Of a stretch of DNA of 64,000 nucleotides, positions 26,725 to 50,935 are shown piece by piece. How positions within the stretch are numbered: the first letter of the stretch is position 1; each line of letters starts with the position of its first letter. A model generated the notes under the pieces. The model had not been told where the DNA came from and ran no database searches. It was given only the letters and a program-made list of their open reading frames with translations. Source of the DNA: Pseudomonadota bacterium (GTDB taxonomy: Bacteria > Pseudomonadota > Gammaproteobacteria > Burkholderiales > Methylophilaceae); contig JAKQIT010000048.1 of the NCBI GenBank assembly GCA_029556915.1, positions 1-64,000 of the forward strand, in the 5' to 3' direction. Made by a program: the position numbers and the translations under genes.

Positions 26725-26865
26725 TAATATGACAATAAACTTAAAATAAGTCTACATCATCAACAAAAACAATTAACAAGGCAAACGTCATGTCATCCAA
26801 TGACCCTATAATAAAAAATCTATTGTCACTTTGCCTAGAATCTTCACGACAAAGAGGAACGAACT

Positions 26866-27129
26866 TTGATCAGTAATCTCAAGAATATTTGCCAGCCTTA
26901 TGTGAATAAGGTCATCAGTTTTTACAACAGTCATCTCAAGAGTACTTGTGAGCCTTATTTAAAAAAGATTATCAGTTTCTATAACAATCATATCAAAAGT
27001 ATTCAGTGGAACAAGATAACTCTGACCTCATCACTGCAAAAGGGGCGGAATTTTGTTTCATCAAGGAAGGCTCTAGCTTTTTCGATTATAGGCGGTGGTG
27101 GAGCATTTATAGGCTCATTGATCGGATAA
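26866..27129 (+). CDS. Small protein with tandem repeat and glycine-rich membrane tail
   Basis: 87 codons from a TTG start preceded by GAGG nine bases upstream. Residues 6-24 and 26-44 are tandem near-copies of a CQPYVNKVISFYNSHLKS-type unit. The C-terminus is a hydrophobic, glycine-rich stretch (AFSIIGGGGAFIGSLIG) suitable as a membrane helix. The start choice matters, since no ATG precedes the first repeat. I know of no family. It may be a membrane-bound peptide of the Ter complex. Confidence 0.5.
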   Translation: MISNLKNICQPYVNKVISFYNSHLKSTCEPYLKKIISFYNNHIKSIQWNKITLTSSLQKGRNFVSSRKALAFSIIGGGGAFIGSLIG

Positions 27130-27287
27130 GTGGTAGCTTAGTCAGCATGGATATGCAATAAGGATAAGTCGCTCCAATTGGTTTGGTATGGCAAGTGGGG
27201 AGCAGGTCAGTTTTATGTTGATTTTACCTTTGCAAAACCGAACGTTGGTCGATTGCAGTTTTTTATATATTACTTTAGGAGTGCAAA

Positions 27288-27869: not shown

Positions 27870-27877
27870 TTTACTTT

Positions 27878-30823: not shown

Positions 30824-31911
30824 GTTTTAGTGGAAGTTACCGCCATGACGATGTTCAGTTCTTGCTAAAACCTTTGCCGCAGCAGCCTTTTATCGATATT
30901 GCCGCTAAAGAAGAACTTATTCAGACGGGCATTCGCCACTACAGTGAAATGTTGTCGCCAGAATCATTACCATCACCGATATATCAGAAAGTCTTTAATA
31001 ATGCATTTTCGGCGAATCGTAAGCAAATGGCGCAGGATTGTTTGTCGTTGGCAACGTTGATAGCATCTAAGCGCAATAACTCCATAACACTTGTATCTTT
31101 GGTTCGTGCAGGCACTCCTGTTGGTGTAATTCTTAAACACTTATTGCAAAAAGCAATGGGGCGGGAAGTGAGCCATTATTCAATTTCTATTATTCGAGAT
31201 CGAGGAGTAGATGAAGCCGCCCTAAACTATATTCTAGATAAAGGACACTCGCCTGAGTCTATTGTGTTTATTGATGGCTGGACTGGAAAAGGCGTGATTT
31301 CCCAAGTGCTTAAAAAAGCCATAAGTAATTTCAATCTTCAAAGAAATATAGAGATTGATGCTGGTTTATATGTATTGTCTGATCTTGCTGGATCAGCTGC
31401 TTATGCAGCATCCTCAATAGATTATTTAATTCCATCGAGTATCTTGAATGCCACTGTCTCCGGCTTGGTAAGTCGTTCGCTACTTAACAGTTCAATTGGC
31501 CCTGGCGACTTTCATGGCTGTGTATATTACGAAGAATTTAAATCGCATGACATTTCCATTGAGTTTGTTGATAACTTAATTGAAGATGCTATGAATATAT
31601 TCAAAACGTGTGGTCTTCAAAAAAGAGAACCAATTGATAGGGAGAAAATGGAGAGAATTTCTATTGAATTTCTCAATAAGACGATGATGGACTATGGTGT
31701 TTCTGACGTTAACTATATAAAGCCAGGTATTGGTGAAGCGACACGTGTTCTGTTGCGTAGAGTACCGAAGATGCTGATTTTAAGAGATACCAATGCTTTA
31801 GATGTGCAACATTTAAAAGTGTTGGCTAAAGAGAAACTTGTTCCATTTATTGTTGATTCCAGCTTACCTTACCAAGCAGTATCTCTTATTAGGAGTAATT
31901 TAGATGGTTAG
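30820..31911 (+). CDS. StiP-type PRTase/PELOTA-like protein of Ter module
   Basis: 363 residues from the ATG that overlaps the HAD stop (ATGA). The N-terminal half has SFSGSYRHDDVQFLLKP, LVSLVRAGTPVGVILKHLL, HYSISIIRDRGVD and VFIDGWTGKGVISQVL. That last motif is a PRPP-loop-like strand, so the domain is PRTase-like. The C-terminal region (VNYIKPGIGEATRVLLRRVPKML and LVPFIVDSSLPYQAVSLI) matches the PELOTA-type RNA-binding tail seen in these proteins. Literature names such proteins StiP, 'cysteine protease StiP family', but I see no protease evidence. It overlaps the next ATG by eight bases. Confidence 0.8.
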   Translation: MSFSGSYRHDDVQFLLKPLPQQPFIDIAAKEELIQTGIRHYSEMLSPESLPSPIYQKVFNNAFSANRKQMAQDCLSLATLIASKRNNSITLVSLVRAGTPVGVILKHLLQKAMGREVSHYSISIIRDRGVDEAALNYILDKGHSPESIVFIDGWTGKGVISQVLKKAISNFNLQRNIEIDAGLYVLSDLAGSAAYAASSIDYLIPSSILNATVSGLVSRSLLNSSIGPGDFHGCVYYEEFKSHDISIEFVDNLIEDAMNIFKTCGLQKREPIDREKMERISIEFLNKTMMDYGVSDVNYIKPGIGEATRVLLRRVPKMLILRDTNALDVQHLKVLAKEKLVPFIVDSSLPYQAVSLIRSNLDG

Positions 31912-32806
31912 TGTAAGTTCACTAGGCGCATCGCTTTATGTGCCTGCAACACATAAAGATTTACAACAAATAGCTAATGGTGAATTACTATGCCATTTGC
32001 GCTCAGTTATATTTTGTACAGAAGACTCTGTTGCCGAGAGTGAGCTTAGCTATGCATTATTTAATTTAGGCTTGGCGCTTCAGAAAATGCCAGACTGTAG
32101 TTCATTGGCACGTTTTGTACGGGTGCGTAATCCCTATGTAATGCAACGTGTTCTAGAAATGCCAGGCTCAGAAAAACTAGATGGATTTGTTTTACCAAAA
32201 GCAACAAGATTCAATTTTGACGATTATTTTCAACAGATTTGCAATACAAAACATATGTTGATGCCAACTCTGGAGACTATTGAGGTCTTTAGTGCCACTG
32301 AAATGCAATTGTTTCGCGAGTGTTTAGAGCGACCAAGCGTGAAAGATCGTATTTTGGCTATACGGATTGGTGGTAATGATTTGTTGGCTTTGTTGGGAAT
32401 AAGGCGACCACGTAACCTGACTATTTATAAGACCCCACTTGGGCCGGTTATTGGGAACTTAGTTGCGACATTCCGACCATACGGTTTTGTGTTAACTGCA
32501 CCTGTATTTGAGCACCTAGATAGCACCGAGTTGCTTTTAAAGGAAGTTCAGGAGGACCTAGCCCATGGTATGGTCGGTAAGACAGCTATACATCCTAGTC
32601 AGATTGACTTAATTGAGCAGCATTATCGAGTTAAACACAATGATCTTGAAGTGGCACTTCGGATAATTGATAAAGATAGTCCACCTGTGTTTAAAATGTA
32701 TGGTTCAATGTGTGAAGTATCTACTCATTCATCATGGGCTCATGGTGTGGTTAAGCAAGCTCAGGTTTTCGGTATTCATGTTGGTGAAGAAGCCGCAGCT
32801 AAATAA
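31904..32806 (+). CDS. HpcH/HpaI aldolase / citrate-lyase-like protein of Ter module
   Basis: 300 residues. TIM-barrel-like pattern with FVRVRNPYVMQRVLEM (R-x-x at the CoA/carboxylate site), LDGFVLPKATRFNFDDY, METIEVF-like LETIEVF, LAIRIGGNDLLALLGI and VGKTAIHPSQIDLI. HpcH/HpaI and citrate lyase beta subunits share this GxxGKxxIHPxQ motif. It acts on a carboxylated substrate in the Ter biosynthetic pathway, most likely forming or breaking a C-C bond. The start ATG overlaps the previous stop by eight bases. The operon ends here. Confidence 0.85.
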   Translation: MVSVSSLGASLYVPATHKDLQQIANGELLCHLRSVIFCTEDSVAESELSYALFNLGLALQKMPDCSSLARFVRVRNPYVMQRVLEMPGSEKLDGFVLPKATRFNFDDYFQQICNTKHMLMPTLETIEVFSATEMQLFRECLERPSVKDRILAIRIGGNDLLALLGIRRPRNLTIYKTPLGPVIGNLVATFRPYGFVLTAPVFEHLDSTELLLKEVQEDLAHGMVGKTAIHPSQIDLIEQHYRVKHNDLEVALRIIDKDSPPVFKMYGSMCEVSTHSSWAHGVVKQAQVFGIHVGEEAAAK

Positions 32807-34854: not shown

Positions 34855-35643
34855 TTAAAACTCAACTCGATCAATGTCATTAATCGCCAAGTAAAGCTGG
34901 AAATCATGCTGTTCCACTTTGCCGCAATACTCAGTTCCACGGTCCGTGAGGATGCGTAGCATCGGTAAGTCGTGACTGCTATAAAACGGCAACACTTTAT
35001 CGTTGAGTAAATCAGCCGCAGTAATCGGCGTTTTGGTCGTGTACAGCTTGCAATGCACGACCTTGCTGTAGGTGTCGATAAAGGTTTGTTGGTAAATGCG
35101 GCCAACGCCTTTGAGATTACCAACGTAAAACGTATCTTGCGCACCCAAGTAGCCAGGATGCATCGTTTCTATCTCACCGCAGGCCACATCATCTTCATGC
35201 TTGCGTTCCAGTGCTGCAATTTGTGCGTCAGTCAGTTCAATGCCTTCATTAGCAACTTTAGTTTCCAGTGCGCTTAATCTGCCTTTGAAGTTCTCAAGCT
35301 TATGGCGTAGCCAAATAGAGCGAACACCACTGCCTGAAACGAATACACCGCGCTTACGCAGTTCATTGCTGGTGCGGTGTTGACCGTGCGCTGGAAAGTC
35401 AACAGCATAACTAATGACAGCTTGTTCTATGACTTCATCAACACGGTTCTTGATATTGGGTGTGCGCCGATTCCGATTAATGAGTCCTTCCAAACCATCG
35501 GTTTCAACAAGTTCTTGATAGCGATAAAATGTATCGCGTGACACGCCCATTATCTTGCAGGCTTTTGATACGTTCTGAAGTTCTTCAGCAAGATTGAGCA
35601 ATCCTGCTTTATGTTTAATGATGGGGTTGTTAGTATGTAGCAT
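34855..35643 (-). pseudogene. IS481-family transposase, 3'-truncated
   Basis: The frame starts MLHTNNPIIKHKAGLLNLAEE with the HTH region SKACKIMGVSRDTFYRY, then the DDE catalytic domain begins: FYVGNLKGVGRIYQQTFIDTYSK (first Asp) and LRILTDRGTEYCG (second Asp, TDRGTE). It stops after about 262 residues, where a full IS481 transposase runs to roughly 330-350. The region with the third catalytic Glu is missing. The element has therefore been broken on its right (transposase 3') side, and it is inactive unless complemented. Read on the minus strand, the inverted-repeat end lies at about 35715. Confidence 0.85.
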
Positions 35644-36048: not shown

Positions 36049-36270
36049 TCACAAGAATCTTGGGAGCTCTACACGCTCTTCCTCAAATTTTTTAATACGT
36101 TCTGCGCGTTCCACGTCTGTGAGGGTGTTCCAGATTTCTAACGCTTTGCGATTATGCTCATCGATTGCGGCCCATTGTTTTCGGAAATATTCGTCTGCGT
36201 TACCTTGCCCAAAATACGACATTGAAAATACGGTAATAGTGCCATCAACATTCATTTCCCGTCTACTCAT
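36049..36270 (-). CDS. Small hypothetical protein, 73 aa
   Basis: 73 residues from ATG (SRREMNVDGTITVFSMSYFGQGNADEYF). It is hydrophilic and rich in charged helices (DEHNRKALEIWNTLTDVERAERIKKFEEERVE). It lies at the downstream end of the minus-strand cassette, 75 bases after the exonuclease at 36346. I recognise no family. It may be a regulator or a fragment. Confidence 0.55.
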   Translation of the reverse strand: MSRREMNVDGTITVFSMSYFGQGNADEYFRKQWAAIDEHNRKALEIWNTLTDVERAERIKKFEEERVELPRFL

Positions 36271-36345
36271 AGAAAACCTTTCTAATTTATTTTGAAATGA
36301 GCAATGAATTTTGCTCTATCCATGTTTTTAAAACCGTTAATCATA

Positions 36346-36879
36346 TTAAAACCTTCTGCTTGTCGCCCTTTGAAACCCGTATCTATTAGCAATTGCATCA
36401 TCCAGTGCATGATGACGTCGCAATGGGGGCTGGAGGCTCTTAAATGCATCCTCTACGCCAGCTTTGAATCTAGTAGCCAGAGTTGAGTAGCGGAAACTTA
36501 ATGCAATTGGTTTGCGAACGAGATTGGTTGGCCACCCCCAGTTATCAAACATATGTTGCACATGCGGCCAGTCAAATAAAGGTGCATCAGTCCACATTTT
36601 GACGTTAGGTAGATTTTTCCCATCGTTAAAACTCTCAATATACTGGCACAGTTGCTTAGCGAGCACACGATAAGGCATCGAATGCTCGCCGCCTTCTAAT
36701 AATGGTAAGACAACAGCATGCACAAATTCAGAGCAAGCTTCAATGTGAAAGTTGGTGTTTTCTGCATAAAATTTACGTCCATCGTCACTTATGCAACCAA
36801 TCGAGATGAGTTCATTAGGCTCTGGATCAAAACCCTCTTGAAATTTAGTAAACTCACAGTCAAAGAATATGTTAATCAC
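36346..36879 (-). CDS. DEDDh 3'-5' exoribonuclease, Rv2179c-like (B)
   Basis: 177 residues. The start is GTG, coding INIFFDCEFTKF. The preceding gene's stop lies inside it, so they overlap by eight bases (GTGATTAA). Catalytic residues in order: Asp and Glu of FFDCEF, ISIGCISDDG, TDAPLFDW (third acid) and RRHHALDDAIA (His and final Asp). This is the DEDDh exonuclease fold of Rv2179c-type RNases. Two decayed copies of it occur near the HU genes at 925-1096 and 4218-4262. It is the downstream-most enzyme of the cassette. Confidence 0.88.
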   Translation of the reverse strand: MINIFFDCEFTKFQEGFDPEPNELISIGCISDDGRKFYAENTNFHIEACSEFVHAVVLPLLEGGEHSMPYRVLAKQLCQYIESFNDGKNLPNVKMWTDAPLFDWPHVQHMFDNWGWPTNLVRKPIALSFRYSTLATRFKAGVEDAFKSLQPPLRRHHALDDAIANRYGFQRATSRRF

Positions 36880-37360
36880 CGATCACACCTTTTGCAGCAG
36901 CTGCCAAAGCTCTAGCATCCCATAGCGCATGGTGCCTAATTGCCAACGGTTGATATTCAAAGTAGTTTTCAATACGGCCAGCAGTACTATAGTTATTAAC
37001 GTTTAATGGTTTCTTATTAAGGCTTTCAGGCCAATTGTCATGCTTTACTAACAATTCATATATCAATGGAAAATCATAGCTTGGTGCATCACTTGCTAGT
37101 TGCACTGGTTCACCCAAATTTTGTAGCCAGTTTTTAAGTTGCTTAGCTGCTACGGCAATTTTTACACCATATTTGGCTTCATCTAAATGTGGCAATACTG
37201 CCTCATGAACAAAGTTTGAACACTCTTTGATTTCATAATTGTCAGTTAACTCAAAATAGAGTTCTTGGCCGCGCTCTGTCACAAAGCCTGCTGAGATCAA
37301 TTTAATGTCAGTTTCGATGCCTAATAAATCCGTAAATTCTGTATCAAAGTAAACTTTCAT
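36872..37360 (-). CDS. DEDDh 3'-5' exoribonuclease, Rv2179c-like (A)
   Basis: 162 residues. The start chosen is MKVYFDTEFTDLL, because its ATG overlaps the HAD stop by four bases. The same start is used by its paralogue at 1103-1579. Catalytic residues as in the family: YFDTEF, DAPSYDFPLIYELL, IRHHALWDARALAAA. It resembles its neighbour B and differs from the copy-1 paralogue at scattered positions. Predicted to trim RNA 3' ends. Encoded with the HAD phosphatases. Confidence 0.9.
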   Translation of the reverse strand: MKVYFDTEFTDLLGIETDIKLISAGFVTERGQELYFELTDNYEIKECSNFVHEAVLPHLDEAKYGVKIAVAAKQLKNWLQNLGEPVQLASDAPSYDFPLIYELLVKHDNWPESLNKKPLNVNNYSTAGRIENYFEYQPLAIRHHALWDARALAAAAKGVIGD

Positions 37361-37860
37361 TCGTATTGAATCTCCATTAATTTGGTATTTAAATCTGCAA
37401 TGGTCTCTTCGCAGTTGAGACCATTGGCTTGTTCGGTAAGCACTAATAAATGTCGATGACTTTCGGGCCATAGATGGACCTCATCACCAGAATGTAAATC
37501 ATCAATCGCTAACCAGCGCTTCACTCCGTTACGTCGCACATGCCACGCGATTTGCTCATATCGGCTCATGTGGTTAAATGGATCTTGACCGCCATGACGC
37601 ATTTGTTTATGCCAAGTCGCACCTATCACTTGCTCCTTTAATTTTGCAGGCATTTTTTTTAGTGTGCGGTTATAACCTAATGCGCGTACCCAACTAGTGC
37701 TCAACACAATTTTGACCTCAGGATAAGGAGCTAATGCTTCTTCTAGTATCGGAGCGTGCATAAATAGCTCACCATAGGCTTTCAACTGCAATGGTTGATT
37801 CGGAATTGCATAGACTGCATTTGGATGTAAAACCCCATCAAAATCTAAAAATATAATCAT
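37357..37860 (-). CDS. HAD-family phosphatase of RNA-repair type (1)
   Basis: 167 residues: N-terminal FLDFDGVLHPNAVY (motif I, D-x-D), VLSTSWVRALGYNRTL (motif II, S/T-W), RWLAIDDLHSG (motif III/IV acid pair) and HLLVLTEQANGL. This pattern is the HAD group named for its occurrence in 'Swiss army knife' RNA-repair proteins, where it may remove terminal phosphates. It is related to the neighbour at 37903 (tandem duplication) and to the pseudogene at 1576-1800. Confidence 0.88.
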   Translation of the reverse strand: MIIFLDFDGVLHPNAVYAIPNQPLQLKAYGELFMHAPILEEALAPYPEVKIVLSTSWVRALGYNRTLKKMPAKLKEQVIGATWHKQMRHGGQDPFNHMSRYEQIAWHVRRNGVKRWLAIDDLHSGDEVHLWPESHRHLLVLTEQANGLNCEETIADLNTKLMEIQYE

Positions 37861-37902
37861 CTTAAAAGTTGTCCAAGTATTACTTGCTCAAAATCACCAT
37901 AT

Positions 37903-38418
37903 TTAAAGCTGACTTTGACGATATAACTCCATTAATTTAGTTTGAATCTCTCTTTGCGTTTCTAAGCAGCCTAAGCCTTTTGATTGTTCAGTCAGTACTA
38001 ATAAATGCCTATGACTCTCTGGCCATTTATTGACCTCATACCCGGAAAACAAATCATCAATTGCGAGCCATTGTTTAATATCATTGTTGCTGGCATGCCA
38101 CTCAATTTGCTCAAATCGACTGATGCTACTGCCATATGGATCTTGATACATTTGCTTCGTTTGGGTATGCAATGTTGCACCTATCACCCTTGCTTGCAGT
38201 TTGTTTGGCAACTTGTAAAGAGTATTTTCATAACCAGCTATTCGCACCCAATTGGTAGATAACACGATCTTAAGTTCTGGGTACGGCTCAATTAGTTTTT
38301 CCAATATTGGGGTATGCATCAATAACGAACCTTCCCCAATAAATTTATGCTCAAGATTGGCAGTTGTGTAGACTGCATCCTGGTGTAAAACCCCATCAAA
38401 ATCCAAATAAATGATCAA
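37903..38418 (-). CDS. HAD-family phosphatase of RNA-repair type (2)
   Basis: 171 residues: YLDFDGVLHQDAVYT, VLSTNWVRIAGYENTL, QWLAIDDLFSGYEV and HLLVLTEQSKGL. All catalytic acids are present (DFDG and IDD). It is a tandem paralogue of the gene at 37357, with which it shares HRHLLVLTEQ. The short gap of 42 bases suggests the same transcript. A copy was duplicated with the cassette, and the decayed HAD at 1576-1800 shares LAIDDLFSGY with it. Confidence 0.88.
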   Translation of the reverse strand: MIIYLDFDGVLHQDAVYTTANLEHKFIGEGSLLMHTPILEKLIEPYPELKIVLSTNWVRIAGYENTLYKLPNKLQARVIGATLHTQTKQMYQDPYGSSISRFEQIEWHASNNDIKQWLAIDDLFSGYEVNKWPESHRHLLVLTEQSKGLGCLETQREIQTKLMELYRQSQL

Positions 38419-38494
38419 ACAAAATTTCCTTCATAATTTTTCCAACGTACTTTTGGTAAGTGGACTTAACAACATTGGCTATCTATTTCTGTAT

Positions 38495-40024
38495 TCATTT
38501 ATCTTGAGATCTTATATCTTGAACACGTAGATCTAATCCTTGATCAAATACCCATATAATATTTTGCATATCCTTAACCAGTCTGCCTGCCCATCTTTTT
38601 GGTTGCTCATTAAAGCCATCATCAGGATTTTCCAGACTACTTTTTTCAGGCATGTAAAAATTGGTGTTTACTTTTAAGTTAACCATTACACTCTTAGCTC
38701 TTAAGCATTGATGGCGTAAGTTCTGTTCTATAAGGTTTAAATCTATGGCATTCCGATTGTTGTTATCTTTTTGATAATTTCCACTTTTTAATGCGGCTTT
38801 GAAATAAGCCAAAACATCTCCCACCAATCTATTGAACTCATTACCTTTACTTGCGATATGATTGCCCGCCAACTTAACAATAACCTCATCTTTCCGCATC
38901 AGATAAGCTTTATGAGCTAAGACTTCTTCCAATATAAGCGGCAACGCTTCAAGCATTTTTCTTGATTTTTTGATAACTAACTCTGGCAACATCGTATCCA
39001 TATCAAGCACCAAATTACGTTCGAACTCATGGTTATCTCCACGTTCAGGGTTACGCATATAGGCTTTTTCACTTCGCTCCATATCTTCTTTTGATACTGG
39101 ATAGCCCCAAAATCCAAGCGCATTAGCTTCTTTTTGTGATAAAGGCTTTCGATGGTAACCACGCGGATTACAGCTAACTACCGTTCCATTTATCGCATAC
39201 TGCACGCGAGCGTGAGTATGACCGTGTAGCCAAAGTTCGACACCTGAACCTTTCCATGACTTATGCCCGAATAAACCTTCCAAATCAGAAGCATAGGCAG
39301 CTACCCGTTTATATCCGTAATCTTCATTTCGGCTTGAACTCCAACTTTGCTGATTCAGCGCGTGATTATCAATCATGCCAGCCTCTTTTAATGACTGATA
39401 ACTCGGCGCATGATGCGTCACAATCACTGTTCTATGTGAGCACTCTTCGTTAAGCTTGTCTTCCAGCCAACTACGGCTTTCGATATGCATGTCATAAGCT
39501 ACAAGCGGATTAAACTTAACTTCATTGAGGCAAATCACAGTAAATATTTCTTGGTACCTTATTTCGTTTTCTGGGGTCCACCACGCTTTAGCCTTGATAT
39601 ATCTGTAATCATTCATCCACACAGTCGCATGGTACATAAGCTCCTGTTGTGGATTGTGATTACGAGACAAAACGACTGGGTGATTTTCGCAGTGAGCTTC
39701 GCCATAATCTGTCCACAAAGTGCAACCAAGAAAGCGTACAGTTTCACCATTGATGGTTAAATTCGCCTCGTCATTTTCTAAAAAGTGTACGTTAGAATCT
39801 TTAGCTGCTAAACGCATTGCTTTAATGTTTTCAAATATATCGCCACCCCAATGTTCATGGTTACCGGCTACATAAATGACAGGTTTAAGTATTGTCTTTG
39901 CCCACTCTATGCCAGCGATGCCCACGCCAATATCTCCAGCGAGTACTACGACGTCTTCACCTTGATCTTCCCAAGTAAATGGACCTGTCTCTAAATGTAA
40001 ATCTGAAAGTTGACGAATTTTCAT
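38495..40024 (-). CDS. Calcineurin-like phosphoesterase with long C-terminal extension
   Basis: 509 residues. The first 280 form a metallophosphoesterase: LSDLHLETG, LAGDIGVGI, YVAGNHEHW, VTHHAPSY and LHGHTHARVQ, the complete dimetal set. Residues about 310-509 are an unusual helical extension (KKSRKMLEALPLILEEVLAHK, GDVLAYFKAAL, KRWAGRLVKDMQN). I do not recognise it. The extension may bind RNA or a partner. It is upstream of the HAD pair, with a 76-base gap. Confidence 0.85.
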   Translation of the reverse strand: MKIRQLSDLHLETGPFTWEDQGEDVVVLAGDIGVGIAGIEWAKTILKPVIYVAGNHEHWGGDIFENIKAMRLAAKDSNVHFLENDEANLTINGETVRFLGCTLWTDYGEAHCENHPVVLSRNHNPQQELMYHATVWMNDYRYIKAKAWWTPENEIRYQEIFTVICLNEVKFNPLVAYDMHIESRSWLEDKLNEECSHRTVIVTHHAPSYQSLKEAGMIDNHALNQQSWSSSRNEDYGYKRVAAYASDLEGLFGHKSWKGSGVELWLHGHTHARVQYAINGTVVSCNPRGYHRKPLSQKEANALGFWGYPVSKEDMERSEKAYMRNPERGDNHEFERNLVLDMDTMLPELVIKKSRKMLEALPLILEEVLAHKAYLMRKDEVIVKLAGNHIASKGNEFNRLVGDVLAYFKAALKSGNYQKDNNNRNAIDLNLIEQNLRHQCLRAKSVMVNLKVNTNFYMPEKSSLENPDDGFNEQPKRWAGRLVKDMQNIIWVFDQGLDLRVQDIRSQDK

Positions 40025-40028
40025 TGGC

Positions 40029-40445
40029 TTATTCTTTTCTTAATTGATGGGCTTCTGTTAGCAATGCGTAAACATGCTTGTTATAACGATCGTATTCATG
40101 ATTGAACGGCAGCTGGTAAGTCGTAGCGATCCATTTCACGACTGCGGCACTTCGACTAATCCCAGCGCGACAATGCACCATAATGCCCTCCACTTGTGGT
40201 GCGAGTGTATGCACGAAATTGACTATCTCAAGTGCGTGTTGAGGGGTCATTAATACATATGGCTCTTCCTCAATTTCAACTTCGATGTCATGAAAATCGC
40301 TTCTATGCACCGAGTGCCAGCCTGACAATAGCTTAGCTTCACCAAAAGCTGAGTCAGGTTCTGAAATGCTAATCATTCCCCAGTTACACCAGCCAGGTGT
40401 GGTTTCTGCGGTAGCTCTGCCGACAAACATTACTTTTTTAATCAT
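40029..40445 (-). CDS. CX5R protein-tyrosine / dual-specificity-like phosphatase
   Basis: 138 residues. Active site VHCRAGISRSAAV (H-C-x5-R-S) near residue 97. An upstream Asp in the loop SDFHDIEVE might act as general acid. PTP-fold helices follow. The family includes phosphatases of proteins and of RNA 5' triphosphates, so in this context it could act on RNA 5' ends. Its start overlaps the upstream HAD stop by eight bases (ATGATTAA), and the next gene begins four bases after its stop. Confidence 0.85.
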   Translation of the reverse strand: MIKKVMFVGRATAETTPGWCNWGMISISEPDSAFGEAKLLSGWHSVHRSDFHDIEVEIEEEPYVLMTPQHALEIVNFVHTLAPQVEGIMVHCRAGISRSAAVVKWIATTYQLPFNHEYDRYNKHVYALLTEAHQLRKE

Positions 40446-40911
40446 AATGAATCCTCGTTGTTAATTCGTTAATTACCTTTACATCAATACCAATAGCACG
40501 GTCACAAATGATTAGTTGCTCAAAGTTGGGTGGGAACTCATCAACTGCATCATCGAGCGCTAGCCATTTACCCGTGTATTGCTGTTGATCAATCCAAGCC
40601 ATGATTTCAGCATGTCTCCAAAACTCTGGTGCTGGTTCAAAAGGCAAAATGGGGCATTTATCAATAATGCGACTGCGCAAATCGGCAGAAAAGAAATGCT
40701 GCAACATCGCTAAATTCATGCAATCACGCCAGCTCGAACTAATCACGACGTTGACTTTTGGATTAGCCCGTAACCAAGCTTCTAGCTGCGGTAGTCTGGA
40801 AAAGTCTTTTTTGCTACCTGACCTCATTCCAACAGGATGTACAACACCATCGAAATCCAGAAATAAAATGATATTTTTGTTATCTTGTTCAATATTATTT
40901 TTTAATTGCAT
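40438..40911 (-). CDS. HAD-family phosphatase of RNA-repair type (3)
   Basis: 157 residues: LFLDFDGVVHPVGM (motif I), VISSSWRDCM (motif II), GKWLALDDAVDEF (motif III/IV). More distant from the two tandem HAD proteins at 37-38 kb, so an independent family member. A region PPNFEQLIICDRAIG and a short N-terminal extension (KNNIEQDNKN) differ. Coupled translationally with the PTP gene. Confidence 0.87.
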   Translation of the reverse strand: MQLKNNIEQDNKNIILFLDFDGVVHPVGMRSGSKKDFSRLPQLEAWLRANPKVNVVISSSWRDCMNLAMLQHFFSADLRSRIIDKCPILPFEPAPEFWRHAEIMAWIDQQQYTGKWLALDDAVDEFPPNFEQLIICDRAIGIDVKVINELTTRIHYD

Positions 40912-40969
40912 GATTTTCCGATCTATCTTTCTTCAATTTGCATATTGCCTTTTGCACATACAACACACA

Positions 40970-41722
40970 TTATTTATCTACCCGATATTGCCGATGCATA
41001 CGCTGCTCATCAAAGCAACCGGCTGAAATCATGCCGCCATACATATCACTAACCCCCTGAAAACCGACTCCATGCGCACTAAATCCAAGGGTGGCTTCGT
41101 GCGCAGCATAATTGAGTCGGTCATGATGATGGCCATGAAAGCAATATTTTGCTTTCATGCTTTGCGCTAATACATCAATCGCTTTAAAGCCGTGCGGATG
41201 GCAACTTGGCGCCTCATGGGTCACTAAAATATCCACCTCCTGACCATATAGATTTAACCAATCTTCATAAAAAATAGTTGTCTTATGTTTGAGCATTTGT
41301 AAATCAGCTTTTTGCTGGTTGATCTTGTGATAAGCCACTTCAGTTTTTAAATGTTTAGCTAGGTCATCATAATTCTCGTGATGAGGTTTAGCCTCGACAG
41401 GATCGGGCCACCAGATTTTCTCTCTAAAAATCCCCCCTAAGCCAGCAACTCTTATGCCATTAATTTCTACTACACGCCCGTGTAAGTTACGATCTGATAA
41501 CGCAGAATTAAACAGGTTGTCATAATCTTTTTGAGAGTCGGTATCATGATTGCCTGGGATAAAGTAAACTTCAGTCATTTCCATCACTTCCGCCAACTCA
41601 TGCTCCAATGGCCGTTGCGCTTGCAAGTCTCCTAAAAAAATGACTGCACAAGGCTGCTCAGCCTCAACTACAGGCAGCACATGTTCAAAATAACCGTGCA
41701 CATCGCCAAACATTAAAATCAT
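40970..41722 (-). CDS. Calcineurin-like metallophosphoesterase (2)
   Basis: 250 residues: MFGDVHGYF (first D-x-H), FLGDLQAQ, IPGNHDTDS, VTHEAPSCHPHG and FHGHHHDRLN. All five motif blocks are present. It resembles small Icc/phage-type phosphodiesterases and may act on a cyclic nucleotide or on RNA 2',3'-cyclic phosphates. It lies one base after the AAA+ gene, tightly coupled. Confidence 0.88.
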   Translation of the reverse strand: MILMFGDVHGYFEHVLPVVEAEQPCAVIFLGDLQAQRPLEHELAEVMEMTEVYFIPGNHDTDSQKDYDNLFNSALSDRNLHGRVVEINGIRVAGLGGIFREKIWWPDPVEAKPHHENYDDLAKHLKTEVAYHKINQQKADLQMLKHKTTIFYEDWLNLYGQEVDILVTHEAPSCHPHGFKAIDVLAQSMKAKYCFHGHHHDRLNYAAHEATLGFSAHGVGFQGVSDMYGGMISAGCFDEQRMHRQYRVDK

Positions 41723-41723
41723 C

Positions 41724-43163
41724 TTAATTCCTCATCAAAGATTTGCTGTCTTCAACCATCTTTTTCTCAACAATACTGCGTACAATTCGATTGATCTCAC
41801 GCGGACCATTGCAACGTGCAATCACGTCAAAATCATCGCCATTCAATGCTGGCAATAGCCGGCGATCAATGTCTACTTCTTTAGCAAACAAATCCATCGC
41901 ACCTTTTACTAATGTGTTGACATACTCAGGTCCTGGTTCTTTTACTACCACTACAGTAAATCGTTCTAGTAACGCTTTAGGTAATGTCCCGATTTCATTC
42001 ACTGTAGCAACCCACGACACCCAGCTTAAATCGCATGCTACACAGAGACATTCGTCCAAAAATACTTTTGCGGTGGCTGGCTCAAGCAACTGTAATAAGA
42101 TGTCCCATAACCGCCCATTTTTATTATCACTACTGGCTTTTTCTAACTCATCAACCAGAAACAATGGATTAGCAATACCTTCTATGGCCATGGCTTGAAT
42201 GACACCACTTGGGCGAGCTGACGACCAACCTCTCGGTGTTCCTCGCAAGTACATGCTGTCATTCGATCCTCCCGCCATAACACCGCGAAATGGCACTTGA
42301 ATCAACTCACTCAATCTTTTCACATAACTCGTTTTACCTACTCCTGGCGGACCCGCTAACAACAATGGCCTTAATTTAAATGCTGGCGTCATACTCAGTT
42401 GTCGTACAACTAACTGTCGATAAATATTCTCAGTTACGTCAGCAAACCATGGAAACTCGATATCTAAAGTAGCTCTTGTCACATCTACGTTTAGTAGACC
42501 AACTAATGCTAGAGGCTGTTCGAGTTTTTTGTATACGCCAGCCTTAAAGTCTCCATCTTCGGGAATTTTTTGATGAATAATATTCAGCGTATAACGTGAG
42601 TGATTGCTCCTAAACTTTAACTTACTGAGTAGATCACTAATCGTAAAAATGTTTGGATGCTTTCTAAACTGATTAAGCTCAATCAATTCTGATACCAACT
42701 CTAAACCCTCATTTGATCTGTCATATTCAAGTAATAGCAGAGCAGAAATCGCAGCGGCATGCATATTCTCCAGGTTGGATTGTTTTTCCATTACAACCTT
42801 AGCAACGAGCTCCTTTGCAAACTCAATAGCCTTTAATGATTTCATCCGATCAGAATTAGTCCAAAGATACAATTGCGCTAACCTTAATTTAGAGCGTAAA
42901 GATCCTAAGTGGCTAGCGTATTCATGCCATTTCAAGGCATCGGGGACCGAAGTGCCACTGGGTATAAAGCCACTCTCATATTTCTCAGCAATTTGTGTTG
43001 CACAGCATTCATCGCCCATTTTCGCACGGCGGTAAATTGCCAATATATCCAAGTGATCTGCTGGAACGTTTATGTCGCTTTCAGTTGGTGCTAATACAAG
43101 GATTGAGATTGCCTTCAACCATTCTGGCATTTCAGGACATGTATTGTTTGTAAGGTCATCCAT
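41724..43163 (-). CDS. AAA+ ATPase with N-terminal TPR/Sel1-like region
   Basis: The ATG at 43163 (DDLTNNTCPEMPEW) is chosen because GAGGAA lies five bases upstream. It overlaps the previous stop by eight bases (ATGGATGA). About 479 residues. N-terminal helical repeats (ALKWHEYASHLGSLRSKLRLAQLYL, SLKAIEFAKELVA) look Sel1/TPR-like. The ATPase part has Walker A LLLAGPPGVGKTSYV (residues about 270), Walker B ANPLFLVDELEKA and the arginine-finger-like LPKALLERF. It is closest to Lon/ClpX-type AAA+ modules, but has no protease domain. I infer a chaperone or remodeller for the cassette. Confidence 0.85.
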   Translation of the reverse strand: MDDLTNNTCPEMPEWLKAISILVLAPTESDINVPADHLDILAIYRRAKMGDECCATQIAEKYESGFIPSGTSVPDALKWHEYASHLGSLRSKLRLAQLYLWTNSDRMKSLKAIEFAKELVAKVVMEKQSNLENMHAAAISALLLLEYDRSNEGLELVSELIELNQFRKHPNIFTISDLLSKLKFRSNHSRYTLNIIHQKIPEDGDFKAGVYKKLEQPLALVGLLNVDVTRATLDIEFPWFADVTENIYRQLVVRQLSMTPAFKLRPLLLAGPPGVGKTSYVKRLSELIQVPFRGVMAGGSNDSMYLRGTPRGWSSARPSGVIQAMAIEGIANPLFLVDELEKASSDNKNGRLWDILLQLLEPATAKVFLDECLCVACDLSWVSWVATVNEIGTLPKALLERFTVVVVKEPGPEYVNTLVKGAMDLFAKEVDIDRRLLPALNGDDFDVIARCNGPREINRIVRSIVEKKMVEDSKSLMRN

Positions 43164-43539
43164 TAAATTCCTCATTTTTCTTTTGATGTATCCGTTCACA
43201 TGCTTGGCATTTCACATAATGCCAAGCATGGGTATATAACTTACCAGGTAGCCCGCAGTCCTCACAAGTAACTCGGCTTAGTACCTCTGCCCTTGCAATT
43301 ATCTTTCTAACGTCTTTAATCGTCGGGTTGCTTGCTTCCAGTGGTTTGAGAAAACCACTAAGATCAACATAAAACCTTAGCGCACCAAACTTTGCTTTTA
43401 CTTGTTGCACATTTGGCCAAGCATCTGGCTTAATCTCTACTTGCTCTGCCGCTGACTCAATGTCTGCACAGAGCTGATTGATGAGTTCGAACCATCCGTT
43501 ACCGCATTCAAATCCCCAAAACTGAAATCGCGGTTGCAT
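43156..43539 (-). CDS. Zinc-ribbon phage-like hypothetical protein
   Basis: 127 residues. The N-terminus has GFECGNGWFELINQLC and VQQVKAKFGALRFYVDLSG. The C-terminus carries a zinc ribbon, C-E-D-C and C-Q-A-C (TCEDCGLPGK, YVKCQACERI). Proteins with this layout occur in phages and prophages with no known function. Its gene overlaps the AAA+ start. Confidence 0.7.
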   Translation of the reverse strand: MQPRFQFWGFECGNGWFELINQLCADIESAAEQVEIKPDAWPNVQQVKAKFGALRFYVDLSGFLKPLEASNPTIKDVRKIIARAEVLSRVTCEDCGLPGKLYTHAWHYVKCQACERIHQKKNEEFNG

Positions 43540-43555
43540 TACTTCACTGCTTTTT

Positions 43556-43933
43556 CTAAACAGTTGGGGATAGGTTGTTACGTTCGCATTCTATTTTCAG
43601 CATGTTTTGGTCATAGTTGCCGTAAGCCGCCATTATTTTTCGGCTGACACCATATTCCTTTTTCAATATATTTGTTGCGTCATTAAACGCCATTCCTTGC
43701 TCCACCATGTCTTGCGTGATACTTGTCAGCGATGTACAAAACGGACTGACAATAGCGTTTATTGGTTTAACAATTAAACCTCGAGGTTTGCTAACTTCAC
43801 CGGTTAGAACATTTAACAAGCAAACACCAATCTCAATAATTTCAGAAATGAATACTTCCTTTTCTGCAGTTGTATCCCAGCAAGTAGCCTCTAAATCAAT
43901 CACCACAACTTCATCAAATCTCCAATTCCCCAT
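43556..43933 (-). pseudogene. DnaQ-like 3'-5' exonuclease, C-terminally truncated
   Basis: 125 residues: EVVVIDLEATCWD (Exo I, D-x-E), FISEIIEIGVCLLN, TSLTSITQDMVEQG and AAYGNYDQNMLKIECER (Exo II). It then stops where the Exo III motif (H-x-x-x-D) should follow 40-50 residues later. The missing end and the abrupt LSPTV finish suggest that a nonsense or frameshift event has removed the third catalytic motif. The reading frame is otherwise open. It may be inactive, or part of a split enzyme. Confidence 0.7.
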
Positions 43934-43938
43934 AATGT

Positions 43939-44259
43939 CTAATCCTTAATCTTCATCACTAATGTTGGTTCCCTTGGTTCAAAATCTCGTTCAACAATCT
44001 TTAGTTTGAACTGTGCTTTTTCAGCTACAACCAACTTGATCACAAATCCATTTACGTTGGTTATCAATGGTAATTTGCCTGCTATCTCCAACTCACGATT
44101 AATAGCTTCAACCGCAGAAAATCTAAGAAAATGTTTAATCAGATCTGTATCTATCCATTCAACATTTATCAATATAGAGCGCTTAATTAAGTCGACTTCA
44201 TAGCAAATTGGTAAATCACGTGCGTTATGCATCATGTGCTTTAAGAGAACCCTATTCAT
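43939..44259 (-). CDS. Hypothetical protein, 106 aa
   Basis: 106 residues starting MNRVLLKHMMHNARDLPI. Its second half (LRFSAVEAINRELEIAGKLPLI and KLVVAEKAQFKLKIVERDF) is helical and strand-rich. Its ATG follows the metallophosphoesterase stop directly (TAAATG). I recognise no family. Possible accessory subunit of the cassette. Confidence 0.6.
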   Translation of the reverse strand: MNRVLLKHMMHNARDLPICYEVDLIKRSILINVEWIDTDLIKHFLRFSAVEAINRELEIAGKLPLITNVNGFVIKLVVAEKAQFKLKIVERDFEPREPTLVMKIKD

Positions 44260-45012
44260 TTAAATTTCAACTATAAAATTAGGATCGAATTCAGAATTTT
44301 CTTCTCCACATTCATATCTGCAGTAACCTCGTGGGTTGCAAACAACACGCGTCCCCTTTGATTTATAGTCAATACTGTCATGGGTATGCCCATGCGCCCA
44401 CAATGTAGGTTTACCAAACAAATGGTCTAAATTTGAAGCGAAGCAAGCCGATAGCAAATTTTTCTTATATCTAGTAACTACTGAGTCTGCACTGGGCAAA
44501 TGATGCGTAACTACCACCGTTTTTCCATAAAATGGCTCTTTTAGTGCTTTTGATAACCAAGTAACGGACTCATCATGTAAACGTATCAAATCATTGGTAC
44601 TAAAGTTCCATTCACCTTCAGTTATTAAGCGAAAATCATTGAGGTTTGACTCACCCTCATACATACAATCCAACTTAAGTTGTTCACCAAAGAGTTTAAA
44701 ATCAGTCCATAAAGTTGCGCCCAAGAATCGCACATCATTAATAATCACCTCCTCGTTATCTAAAAAATGTATTTTGGTTTCTCTTGCTGCAATTCTCAGG
44801 TGCGCCAATACCTCAAGTCTATTTTGACCATAGAACTCATGATTTCCAGCAACATAGATAATCTCTTTATCAGGCCAGGTTTGTCTTGCCCAATAAATAC
44901 CACGATTGCCCTTAAAGATGTCGCCTGCGAGCACCACTACATCAGGTTCCACAGTTGGTTTTTGAATCATAGAAAACTCTAAATGTAGATCACTTAACAC
45001 TAATATTTTCAT
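44260..45012 (-). CDS. Calcineurin-like metallophosphoesterase (1), first gene of cassette
   Basis: 250 residues: LSDLHLEFS, LAGDIFKGN, YVAGNHEFYGQN, VVTHHLPSA and LWAHGHTHDSI, followed by CNPRGYCRYE. All metal ligands are present. It is close to the catalytic domain of the gene at 38495 (shared YVAGNHE, CNPRGY). A terminator-like hairpin and a small leader frame precede it. It is likely the first gene of the transcript that runs to about 36 kb. Confidence 0.9.
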   Translation of the reverse strand: MKILVLSDLHLEFSMIQKPTVEPDVVVLAGDIFKGNRGIYWARQTWPDKEIIYVAGNHEFYGQNRLEVLAHLRIAARETKIHFLDNEEVIINDVRFLGATLWTDFKLFGEQLKLDCMYEGESNLNDFRLITEGEWNFSTNDLIRLHDESVTWLSKALKEPFYGKTVVVTHHLPSADSVVTRYKKNLLSACFASNLDHLFGKPTLWAHGHTHDSIDYKSKGTRVVCNPRGYCRYECGEENSEFDPNFIVEI

Positions 45013-45025: not shown

Positions 45026-45053
45026 TAAAAAAGGCCTCTTTATTGAGGCCTTT
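45026..45053 (-). terminator. Terminator-like hairpin just before cassette
   Basis: On the minus strand: AAAGGCCTC - AATAAA - GAGGCCTTT and then TTT, giving a nine-base-pair stem with a T run. The T run ends 14 bases before the ATG of the first metallophosphoesterase. Position after a possible promoter and before the coding start suggests attenuation, though it could also terminate a lost upstream gene. Confidence 0.7.
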
Positions 45054-45099: not shown

Positions 45100-45370
45100 T
45101 CCAGTTTTAACTGAGTTGGTTGTTACGGTAAAATAAATTGTGCTACTTTGTTTCACATGTAAAAATGTATTCAAATTGTTAATTAAGTCTCTTCAATGCA
45201 CCAATTAACGAACACACAAACTTAATCGCAAAAAAAATCAATTTGGTTCAATATTTATTCAAATGATTTTATTGCTGATGATGTTTGATATACTCGCGAT
45301 TAATATCATTTAATATAGAGAATATTATATCTATTATACTTTTTAAGTCAATAGATATGTATAAGTTATT

Positions 45371-46171
45371 ATGGAAGTCCGCGATTTGTTTAAAGCGTTA
45401 GCTAATTTTTCTACACTCAATAATGCTGCGATTGCAGACTCAGCTGGCGTAAAAAGGCCAAATTTATACAGTTGGCTGGGTGGTAAGAGTCAATCAATGT
45501 CGGAAGATAATATTGAAAAACTATTCAATATATTAGGTGTAAAGAAAGGCAAATTATCGTCAGAGATTGTGTATCGTTGGCAACTCGAAGATTCAGAGGC
45601 AAGCCATATTAAGGATGTTCTAAAGCATTTTTTAAATCAGGAGTATTTAAATAATGCGGAAATACATTTTATTGAAATTGAAGGTTATGAAGCAAAACAA
45701 GTTGCTAAACACAATCTTATCAGAATACCTATTGAGACAAATGAGAGTGTAACTATATTAGTCACTTCAAATAATAAACTGAATGTTGGATATCCTATTA
45801 AAAGCTCAAAATTGGGATTTGGTCAGGATAAGCAAAAAATAACAGTGAATTTAGACCAGTGGTTTAGATGGATGGAATCAGATACTTTATCATCAGCAGA
45901 GTTTTGGATAGAGGCATCTTTCTATATTTCAGCCCAACACGTTATTTCATCATCGGTATTGAATGATGATATTGACATTAAAACCAGTTATGAAAATCAA
46001 CTAATTGAGAAAATCGCTGAAAATGCTGGATTACGAGCAATCATAAGATCTTTATTAAGAGAGCTTCGTTTATCAAAGCCAAAACATGTTCTGTTAAATC
46101 AAGATAATAGGGATTTAATTTATAAAGAATACTTCGAACATGAAATTTCAAAGATTCGTAAAGTCAAATAA
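45371..46171 (+). CDS. HTH-type regulator, divergent from cassette
   Basis: 266 residues. The N-terminal 70 residues form a Cro/XRE-like HTH (LANFSTLNNAAIADSAGVKRPNLYSWLGGKSQSMSEDNIEKLFNILGV, read in shorter parts). The C-terminal 180 residues are a mixed domain (EIEGYEAKQVAKHNLIRIPIETN and RAIIRSLLRELRLSKP), which I do not recognise. It is divergent from the minus-strand cassette with a 358-base gap holding the leader and hairpin. I infer that it controls the cassette. Confidence 0.7.
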   Translation: MEVRDLFKALANFSTLNNAAIADSAGVKRPNLYSWLGGKSQSMSEDNIEKLFNILGVKKGKLSSEIVYRWQLEDSEASHIKDVLKHFLNQEYLNNAEIHFIEIEGYEAKQVAKHNLIRIPIETNESVTILVTSNNKLNVGYPIKSSKLGFGQDKQKITVNLDQWFRWMESDTLSSAEFWIEASFYISAQHVISSSVLNDDIDIKTSYENQLIEKIAENAGLRAIIRSLLRELRLSKPKHVLLNQDNRDLIYKEYFEHEISKIRKVK

Positions 46172-46693: not shown

Positions 46694-47281
46694 TTACAAA
46701 GAATTCAACTAACTACTACGTTTATTTTTTCAACGCGCCCGAGCGAATCAACCCCAAACCGGCTAACCTACCTTGAAGATGGTAAGCCACGCTGTGAGCT
46801 GGCGCAATTTGGTTTAGTGCCCCACTGGGCTACCGATAAAAAGAAGTTTGGTTTGCATACTTACAATGCCAGAAGTGAAACAGTGGCGGAGAAACCGAGC
46901 TATCGCAGTGCTTGGAAAGAACGTCGGTTTGGCTTAGCCATTATGCAAAGCTTTTATGAACCAAGTTGGGAAACAGGTAAAGCCATACGCTGGCGGATTA
47001 AACGTACTGATTCTGAACCTGTTGCTGTGGCTTCTATTTGGGAGCGCTTTATTGACAAAGAAACGGGTGAGATTATCTTTTCATTTTCAATGCTGACCAT
47101 AAATGCGGATGGGCATCCTGTGATGCAACAGTTTCATAAGCCTGAGGATGAGAAGCGGTCGATTGTGGTATTGAATGAAGCCAATTACTTGCCTTGGCTA
47201 AAGGCTAATCATGATGAAGCGAGACACTTACTGCAATTGGCCCCGAATGGCTTTCTGAGTAGCGAAGCCGCACCGCGTTAG
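46694..47281 (+). pseudogene. yedK: SRAP (YedK/HMCES-like) gene, 5'-truncated
   Basis: The frame is open from 46694. It reads in SRAP style from about 46742: SESTPNRLTYLEDGKPRC, FGLVPHWATDKKKF, YNARSETVAEKPSYRSAW, QSFYEPSW and VASIWERF. The usual N-terminal MCGR/MCAN segment with the Cys2 that forms a covalent link to abasic sites in single-stranded DNA is absent. A GTG at 46817 could start a shorter product. Family: repair of abasic ssDNA. The gene convergently abuts umuC (four-base overlap). The loss of Cys2 predicts an inactive remnant. Confidence 0.8.
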
Positions 47282-48552
47282 TTCACGCTTAATATCTCCT
47301 CCCAGTGGCTGGTATAGCTGGGGCTTTTATTCCCTTGTTTCATTTTCCACGGCCGAGCAAAGCCTTCACTGGCAAGCTTAATGGTTTCTTTGCCCATTTT
47401 CCTGTTGATACTGTCCATGGCCGTCATTAAGGCAGTAGATTTAGGCGATGCTGTTGTTTGGCTAAATAAATCAGTTTGTACGCCTGCCATCGGTACTAGC
47501 TCTGTGAGCATCACACCAGCTTTGACATATGGGTAGTTCGGTTTGTAGAGTTGCTTCAGTCCCCATAGCACGGCATTCACTAAGGTTCGGCTATCTTGGG
47601 TAGGACTGGGTAAGGCGATGGTCATGGCGTTGCTGTAAAACGGTTCATCAGGCTTAAAGGGACTGGTGGTGATAAAGACTTGTATGGCCCCAGCAAAGCT
47701 GCATTGTTTGCGTAATCGCCCTGCGGCGGTACTGGTGTATAAGGTGACAGATTGAGCCAAGCTTTCATAGTCAGTGACGGGGTAACCAAAGCTACGTGAG
47801 CTTAGGATTTGTTGTTTAACGGGGGCAATTTCTTCCATCTCAATACAGACCGTACCATTGAGTTCGCGGATAGTCTTTTCCATCACGACACTGAATTGTT
47901 GTCTTAAGCGTTCAGGGCTGGCACGTTTTAAGTCGAGGACTGTATTCAAACCCAAAGCTTGTAGTTTGGGGGCAAGCTTGCGACCAACGCCCCAGATTTC
48001 ACCCACGTCAATTTGGCCTAGCAGGTCATCTAAGTCATTCGCTGGCATGGTGTTGAAGTTGCACACGCTATTGAACGCTTTGCGTTTTTTTGCACAATGA
48101 TTAGCCAGTTTAGAGAGGGTTTTAGTGGATGCGATTCCAACGCATACCGGTAAGCCTGTCCACCTGAGAATACGCTGCCGCATGTGTTGGCTGTAGCGAA
48201 TCAAATCACGGCTTTGAAAGCTGGTGAGGTCTAAAAAGGACTCATCAATCGAATACACTTCTTGCTGCGGACTGTAGTCCCGTAAGATGCTCATGACCCG
48301 ATTACTCATATCGGCATAAAGTGCATAATTAGAGGATAGTGCCACAATACCGTGTTGATGAGCCAAGTCCTTAAACTTAAACCAAGGCGCCCCCATCCCG
48401 ATACCTAGGGCTTTGACTTCGTTACTACGAGCAACCGCACAACCATCATTATTACTGAGGACAACCACGGGTTTGTGGTTAAGTTTGGGGTTAAAGACAC
48501 GTTCACAACTGACGTAGAAATTGTTGACATCAATAAGGGCGATTTGACGCAT
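47278..48552 (-). CDS. umuC: DNA polymerase V subunit UmuC
   Basis: 424 residues, Y-family polymerase. [16 protein letters not shown] (first catalytic Asp and steric gate), [28 protein letters not shown] (second catalytic acids, D-E), [21 protein letters not shown] (little-finger/palm) and [15 protein letters not shown] (helix-hairpin-helix). The C-terminus ([20 protein letters not shown]) ends with the UmuC-type tail. Translesion synthesis under SOS. Starts eight bases after umuD. Confidence 0.95.
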
Positions 48553-48560
48553 AGGACAAC

Positions 48561-49175
48561 TTACTTAAAGCGCCTAAATGACCCAATCACCACACCCCAT
48601 ATTTCAAAGCTCATGCCCTCTTTGATTTCGATGGGGGCATAAGCACCTGTGGAGTTAGCAGGTAAGAGACGAGGTGAACCATCTTTTTTTTGAGCTAACG
48701 TTTTAATGGTAAATTCGCCATCCAATACGGCTAATACAATGTCACCAATAGACGGCTTTTTAGAGCGATCCACGACGGCCTTATCGCCTGGCATTAAACC
48801 CACCTCGATCATGGACTGGCCTTGTATGGTGACAAAGAAGGTGGCATCTGCTTGATCGATTAAGTAGTCATTGGTATCCAGACGCTTTTCTACATGGTCA
48901 TCGGCTGGTGAGGGAAAGCCAGCGGGTACCTTGGAAGAATACAATGGAAGCGATAGGGGTGAGTTCAATAATTTAGGCCATTCAAACTCTTCGACCATAT
49001 CTAGGCTGGCGGCCAACTTTTTACGTTGGTAAGCGACTAAAAAATCTTTAATGATAGGCTCTTGGCTAGCAGGCACTCTTAATGCGGTTGTCGGTTCTAA
49101 GAATTTGCCTGTGCCCGCTTTTCTGCCACCACCAGGTTTATTTTTACGCCGTAATTGACTAGTTATATCTTCCAT
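48561..49175 (-). CDS. umuD: UmuD-like SOS mutagenesis protein (LexA-type peptidase)
   Basis: 204 residues, longer than usual UmuD because of an N-terminal extension ([20 protein letters not shown]). The LexA/UmuD peptidase core has a cleavage site [11 protein letters not shown] (Ala-Gly), catalytic Ser in [10 protein letters not shown] (near 118) and Lys in GEFTIKTLA (near 157). RecA-assisted self-cleavage activates it for polymerase V. The extension is DNA-binding-like in composition. A half-LexA-box-like CTGT lies upstream on the minus strand, but no full consensus CTGT-N8-ACAG is found. Confidence 0.92.
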
Positions 49176-50922: not shown

Positions 50923-50935
50923 AAAAGTACATCTT

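Follow-up and report, generated by a model that had tools for sequence, protein, structure and literature searches.

The minus strand at positions 36049-45012 of contig JAKQIT010000048.1, from a Burkholderiales bacterium of the family Methylophilaceae (assembly GCA_029556915.1), carries a 14-gene cassette of phosphatases, phosphoesterases and exonucleases that is a genuine recurrent module, with members combined in a mix-and-match fashion. The window analyzed here comprises the first 64,000 nucleotides of this contig. We tentatively read the cassette as an accessory module, carried by plasmids and other mobile elements, that might trim and strip RNA fragments or oligonucleotide signals, through a mechanism that we infer from the composition of the set. 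A preliminary description of the window had proposed a previously undescribed nucleic acid end-repair system. The claim of novelty holds in that no paper on the cassette was found among the matches listed for the open-licence literature, including those for HAD_SAK, PF18143 and SAK RNA repair; the claim of repair fared less well (see below).

Clustering of the cassette families across the order

Profiles of six families were searched against 300 genomes of the order, the host included: metallophosphoesterases of type A (MPEA) and type B (MPEB), HAD_SAK_2 phosphatases, CX5R dual-specificity-type phosphatases (DSP), RNase-AS-like DEDDh exonucleases, and Lon-type AAA ATPases. Because limited numbers of candidates were scored per genome (up to five for AAA and up to eight for MPEA), the numbers of genomes with a match are lower bounds: at least 75 for MPEA, at least 60 for AAA after removal of Lon, at least 41 for HAD_SAK_2 (40 above the cut-off), at least 24 for DEDDh, at least 16 for MPEB, and at least 12 for DSP. 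For the clustering statistics, the host was excluded, leaving 299 genomes; pairs were counted within 8 kb, and the expected number was derived from random placement, with every genome taken as only 2 Mb. For HAD_SAK_2, the 57 of 62 rows above the family cut-off were used, and for AAA only the listed rows at E < 1e-43, to drop Lon, the AAA counts being lower bounds; two fragments of one MPEA gene in G073 were counted as one. Among the 219 same-genome pairs of different families, 83 were no more than 8 kb apart, compared to ~1.75 expected, which bears out the preliminary description of a set of phosphatases, phosphoesterases and exonucleases that belong together.

Altogether, 17 clusters were identified in 14 genomes spanning eight GTDB families. 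Examples include AAA-MPEA-HAD-MPEB-DSP in G284, AAA-DEDDh-HAD-DSP-MPEA-DSP in G245, three HADs followed by DEDDh, MPEA and AAA in G091, and four HADs followed by MPEA and two DEDDh genes in G139. Overlaps of 4 bp between different members were detected in loci L013, L019 and L070 and on plasmids from Comamonas and Variovorax. One of the four tandem HAD_SAK_2 genes of G139 (L067) is apparently frame-shifted, and two clusters contain a further type of metallophosphoesterase with a weak match (L068, 4284-5033; L069, 7186-7827).

Composition of the cassette

All 14 open reading frames (ORFs) of the cassette were recovered on the minus strand at the positions originally assigned to them, and 12 have a family match or relatives elsewhere, one of these 12 being truncated. 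The predicted complement of three metallophosphoesterases, three HAD phosphatases, one CX5R phosphatase and one AAA ATPase was found in full by Pfam matches. The statement that many genes are coupled by four- or eight-base overlaps applies to three of the 13 junctions (one after correction of a start); one junction overlaps by 44 bp as called, and the remaining nine are gaps of 0-76 nt.

The first gene encodes MPEA (44260-45012; Metallophos, 1.3e-12), with metal-site residues that do not vary across nine aligned rows. An MPEA paralog with a C-terminal extension of ~215 amino acids (38495-40024; Metallophos, 3.8e-5; Metallophos_2, 3.2e-6) shows 36% identity to it over 297 aligned positions. MPEB (40970-41722; Metallophos, 2.4e-13) has metal-site residues invariant across five aligned rows. 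Three genes score above the PF18143 (HAD_SAK_2) cut-off, namely, 37357-37860 (9.5e-29), its tandem duplicate at 37903-38418 (4.3e-23; 59% identity to its neighbor), and a divergent copy at 40438-40911 (4.7e-25). An AlphaFold2 model of the first of these (mean pLDDT 89.9) retrieved nothing from the PDB at E 0.001 or better; its best structural matches among phosphatases were YrbI/KdsC-like, at a TM score of ~0.45-0.5, and are uninformative about the substrate. For DSP (40029-40445; DSPc, 2.8e-9), the motif HC[KR]AG[IV]SRS is present in five of six aligned rows. Overall, alignments show that active-site residues are kept in the MPEA, MPEB, HAD, DSP and RNase-AS-like proteins.

Both DEDDh exonucleases of the preliminary description were recovered. 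The first (36872-37360) is recognized through NF033638 (1.7e-7) and phrog_2259 (5.1e-21), with no Pfam match. As called, this ORF spans 36872-37471, but its true start is most likely at 37360 (MKVYFD...), which reduces the overlap with the HAD gene from 115 bp to 4 bp. The second (36346-36879) matches the Rv2179c-like family PF16473 (1.6e-6), and a profile of seven relatives matches Rv2179c itself (4oke, 1.1e-10) and two further PDB sequences at 6e-11 to 2e-10. By profile comparison, the nearest solved relatives of the exonucleases are Rv2179c-type exoribonucleases. The cassette proteins share the DEDDh residues and this relationship (PF16473, PDB 4oke) with RNase AS/Rv2179c but fall far below the curated cut-off of the RNase AS equivalog NF033638 (41.5 and 31.7 bits versus 200). 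The link to RNA originally drawn from the HAD and exonuclease types is thus retained, given that HAD_SAK_2 and the RNase-AS-type families point to RNA or oligonucleotides. A third, DnaQ-like DEDDh exonuclease (43556-43933; RNase_T, 2.9e-8), described before as decayed, is indeed truncated, with 125 amino acids compared to 182 in L019 and L013; the C-terminal H/D portion of the site is gone, and the gene is a probable pseudogene.

The Lon-type AAA+ ATPase (41724-43199; PF00004, 4.6e-12) contains ~220 additional N-terminal residues and lacks the Lon protease domain, TIGR00763 being matched over the AAA part only (98.9 versus 608 bits). The zinc-ribbon protein (43156-43539) stayed below the Pfam cut-off but proved to be a recurrent member: a hidden Markov model built from the window gene and its relatives recovered nine genes in seven of 37 loci, none of them more than 1.4 kb from a core gene. 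One of the nine is a fusion: in L075, a single ORF matches the zinc-ribbon profile nearly throughout (13-149 of 160) and continues into HAD_SAK_2. A small family, c12, was found in six of the 37 loci and HU in five; because these loci were picked for core genes, the counts for zinc ribbon, c12 and HU describe composition, not enrichment. As for the two small proteins of the preliminary description, the 106-amino-acid protein of unknown function (43939-44259), which has no family match, is weakly backed by one match in L019 (25% over 40 amino acids), but the 73-amino-acid ORF (36049-36270) is unsupported, with no match other than itself in the window and 30 loci and none in the family libraries.

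Leader and divergent regulator

Upstream of MPEA, a sigma70-like promoter (TTGACT-16-TATAAT, 11/12; 45324-45351, minus strand), the hexamers of which are also seen in the alignment of three copies from the host genome, is followed by a leader of ~290 nt. The leader ends ~18 nt short of the MPEA start codon, in a terminator-like hairpin with a U-run (45030-45053, minus strand) that recurs in each of the three host-genome copies retaining this upstream region. Folding of the window leader beats 100 of 100 shuffles (z -3.24). In Rfam, the leader scored no higher than 24.8 bits (gathering score, 57), and a 64-amino-acid leader ORF of the L023 copy is interrupted in the other two. Neither terminator-like sites (two versus a shuffle mean of 7.2) nor promoter-like sites (28 versus 34.8) are enriched in the region; because terminator-like sites are not enriched, the evidence for an attenuator is the position of the hairpin and its conservation among three paralogous copies. 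These two features suggest that the leader may act as a transcription attenuator.

A divergent, repressor-like helix-turn-helix (HTH) regulator (45371-46171, plus strand) matches phrog_4, a transcriptional repressor family, over residues 18-67 (5.8e-5), with no Pfam match, and occupies the same position in all three host-genome copies. Its structure model was discarded (mean pLDDT 46.5). Together, the leader and the HTH gene suggest two-layer control of the cassette.

Copies in the host genome and congeners

The host assembly (3.28 Mb, 165 contigs, reported to be 99.99% complete with 5.65% contamination) appears to be Methylotenera-like: the best named match of the window HAD protein is from a Methylotenera metagenome-assembled genome (L013; 52% identity), although very near records may be absent from the comparison. 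Two further cassette copies were identified in the host, on contigs C76 (L017) and C36 (L023), as well as a partial one. L017 reads MPEA, zinc ribbon, AAA, small protein, MPEB, DSP and HAD, and L023 reads MPEA, AAA, MPEB, a short remnant of HAD and DEDDh, and an Rv2179c-like gene. MPEA leads both copies, the AAA+ proteins show 47-52% identity to that of the window, and both copies are flanked by the divergent HTH regulator on the upstream side and by an HU gene on the downstream side. Because of the reported contamination, one host copy could stem from another strain.

In the L023 remnant (8400-8624), an internal deletion fuses HAD residues 1-27 to the last 54 residues of the DEDDh protein, which indicates gene turnover within the cassette. 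The partial copy of the cassette 3' end (window 977-1806, minus strand), detected by tblastn, profile and ORF analyses, consists of the C-terminal part of HAD, an open DEDDh ORF of 158 amino acids (1103-1579) and the start of an Rv2179c-like gene. Reshuffled versions of the set are present in the three congeners that have HAD_SAK_2 (G011, G018 and G021) and in the Methylotenera genome L013. Duplication and decay of cassette genes are consistent with arms-race turnover.

Plasmids, relaxases and viruses

Partial sets of cassette genes reside on plasmids. A Sphaerotilus plasmid carries AAA-MPEA-MPEB downstream of an HTH gene; a Comamonas plasmid, an antitoxin-like gene followed by HAD, another gene and MPEB, with 4-bp overlaps; a Variovorax plasmid, HAD and MPEB joined by a 4-bp overlap, with MPEA close by; and an Acidiphilium plasmid, MPEA-MPEB. 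On a Bradyrhizobium plasmid, MPEA and AAA lie on opposite strands, 1.4 kb apart, beside conjugation genes. Further plasmid copies are single genes. In three plasmid loci, HAD_SAK_2 overlaps a small upstream gene by 4 bp, annotated as an HTH regulator (L026), a hypothetical protein (L028) or an MqsA-type antitoxin (L029), possibly a two-gene unit. On the Rhizobium plasmid pRlBT01c, a CBASS operon (L209, 14435-17212) is located ~5 kb from a solitary MPEA gene.

In some elements, the module sits directly downstream of a relaxase gene. Relaxases were searched in 18 genomes, comprising the 14 cluster genomes, the host and the three congeners: four of the nine PF03432 (MobA/VirD2) matches are followed on the same strand, at no more than 3 kb, by a cassette (G139 C4, G275 C23, G275 C30 and G021 C84), and no PF03389 match was found near a cassette. 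In addition, the L019 cassette is preceded by a gene for an LPD7-bearing protein and the L088 cassette by one for a 1,493-amino-acid helicase-bearing protein, a putative relaxase; at L013, a TrwC relaxase gene follows the cassette at ~4 kb. Plasmid residence or relaxase linkage was found for part of the sets. Relatives of single members occur in viruses as well, with MPEA in 150 phage records and DSP in 54; HAD was absent from INPHARED records but found in 29 viral contigs, and an alignment search for DSP detected none in viral contigs.

Proposed function and alternative explanations

If the cassette is an accessory module of mobile elements, it would be expressed following entry or induction, under the HTH repressor and the leader attenuator. 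The exonucleases would trim the 3' ends of RNA fragments or oligonucleotides, the metallophosphoesterases would open phosphodiester or cyclic-phosphate bonds, and the HAD protein, aimed by the zinc ribbon, together with the CX5R enzyme, would remove terminal phosphates, with the AAA protein remodeling a target. The net effect would be to erase the cleaved RNA ends or nucleotide alarm signals of host defense so that the element becomes established.

Several observations weigh against this interpretation. No other family lies within 8 kb of most matches, namely, 13 of 16 for MPEB, 76/87 for MPEA, 57/66 for AAA, 33/53 for HAD, 20/32 for DEDDh and 9/14 for DSP; that over half of the matches in each family are solitary speaks against a fixed operon. 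HAD_SAK_2 is present in only three of 24 congeners. A PF03432 relaxase stands beside only three of the 17 clusters (in two of the 14 cluster genomes), leaving 14 clusters with none, and the contig of the window matches neither PF03432 nor PF03389. In two alphaproteobacterial neighborhoods with similar annotation, the plasmid-borne neighbor of MPEA does not match the respective cassette profile (the AAA protein in Rhizobium, the HAD protein in Bosea). Two or more families were found together in only five of 109 viral loci (these include the best 80 of 589 MPEA loci), and none of 43 viral AAA loci held a set, so that a phage-borne module was rejected. PADLOC gave only weak matches to defense models, and a known defense system was likewise rejected.

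The prevalence of solitary copies in all six families, along with a plasmid MPEB that sits among metabolic genes, would fit independent, ordinary nucleotide or metabolite phosphatases that hitchhike on mobile elements with no joint pathway. We consider this explanation rather doubtful because of the excess of close pairs, the 4-bp overlaps that join different members in several genera, and the zinc ribbon-HAD fusion in L075. The preliminary description had proposed to survey gene neighborhoods for dispersal among unrelated neighbors, and the outcome is divided, with clusters recurring in eight families of the order but most single members, such as MPEB, standing alone.

Another alternative, which we regard as unlikely, is RNA end healing, whereby cleaved tRNA or other RNA would have its 2',3'-cyclic, 3'- and 5'-phosphate ends cleaned for resealing by a ligase. 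The HAD_SAK_2 family is named after RNA-repair proteins, RNase-AS-like exonucleases would fit this role, and, in PMC7824862, stand-alone SAK HADs and, in few cases, calcineurin-like enzymes of jumbo phages are presented as RNA end phosphatases alongside RNA ligases. By analogy, the cassette's way of working would be most like that of these end-processing sets, which likewise include stand-alone HAD_SAK phosphatases on mobile genomes. Compared to them, the cassette lacks an RNA ligase or kinase, adds AAA, CX5R, zinc-ribbon and RNase-AS-like components, and occurs mostly on plasmid-type elements and chromosomes. As the preliminary description noted, there is no RNA ligase among the Pfam matches of the cassette proteins. 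RtcB and RNA_ligase are both absent from the host and, among the 10 of 14 other cassette genomes that were examined, from six, other ligase families not having been searched; RtcB is present in the remaining four. These absences make repair with resealing less likely, so that the term "end repair" is not supported, and favor stripping and trimming without resealing.

A relationship to ARG-centered anti-ADP-ribosylation systems, with the phosphatases finishing off ADP-ribose phosphates, appears improbable. ORFs matching phrog_4776 are located near the L023 cassette (2648-3265) and, in the window, close to the partial copy (3105-3713), with 26% identity to each other; we take them to be ADP-ribosyltransferase-like by a motif only, the family being uncharacterized. 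According to PMC9503650, phosphatases of the rhodanese-type CX5R, calcineurin-like and HAD kinds are coupled in ARG-centered systems and controlled by a repressor, with variable partners, a composition resembling that of the cassette. In contrast to those neighborhoods as described there, neither ARG nor a Nudix/WYL regulator was found in the cassette; specifically, the cassette proteins and the divergent regulator have no Pfam match to ARG, Macro, NADAR, Nudix or WYL at E 0.01. Finally, a host-side antiphage operon that degrades the RNA or DNA ends of invaders is very unlikely, despite the other defense genes in the window (a Wadjet-like set and a DNA methylase) and the match of MPEA to the PADLOC defense candidate PDC-S10 (1.7e-13 over approximately the first 105 residues, for a model with no stated cut-off), given that relatives of single members are found in phages themselves and that relaxase linkage and plasmid residence suggest that the cassette serves the element.

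Neighboring genes

The cassette is bordered by a probably incomplete transposase (34855-35643; HTH and a weak integrase-core match). Farther away, a WYL regulator, a DUF3584 SMC-like ATPase and a TOPRIM/DUF7281 protein form one block (6389-13596), which looks like a Wadjet (JetABCD) plasmid-defense system. A tellurium-resistance-type cluster (TerD/VWA/kinase), followed by ATP-grasp and phosphoribosyltransferase-like genes recognized from translations, occupies 17025-32806. On the other side, an N6/N4 DNA methylase and a helicase-like protein (from translation) form a type III restriction-modification-like pair (49282-53551). Both in the host genome and on plasmids, the cassette or its HAD gene repeatedly has SOS-mutagenesis genes, SRAP and/or umuC/umuD, at a distance of no more than ~10 kb (window 46817-49175; L017 10556-12504 and 18542-18970; L023 769-2085 and 3367-4014; L028; L030; L031).

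Implications

A precedent for the strategy is provided by the phage metallophosphoesterase Gp48, which acts in counter-defense according to PMC12287305; it is likewise encoded in a mobile genome but is a single phage gene and implies no kinship to MPEA or MPEB. Extending the mobile-element interpretation, we offer, as a speculative and doubtful proposal, that the cassette is a "signal-eraser" of conjugative or mobilizable elements. In this view, phosphodiesterases, phosphatases and RNA-type exonucleases in varying assortment, assembled with an AAA motor and a zinc ribbon, would be expressed on entry, either as a block behind the relaxase or through the attenuator leader, and would destroy defense nucleotides or RNA ends of many kinds simultaneously, in contrast to inhibitors that each handle a single signal. 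To our knowledge, anti-defense enzymes that remove immune nucleotides act singly. The stand-alone HAD_SAK_2 family, named for RNA repair from its domain context, occurs in genomes that often lack the two main RNA ligase families. If the proposal is correct, a recurring, interchangeable battery partly tied to mobilization genes would be a candidate for the means by which plasmids survive signaling-based or RNase-based abortive defenses.

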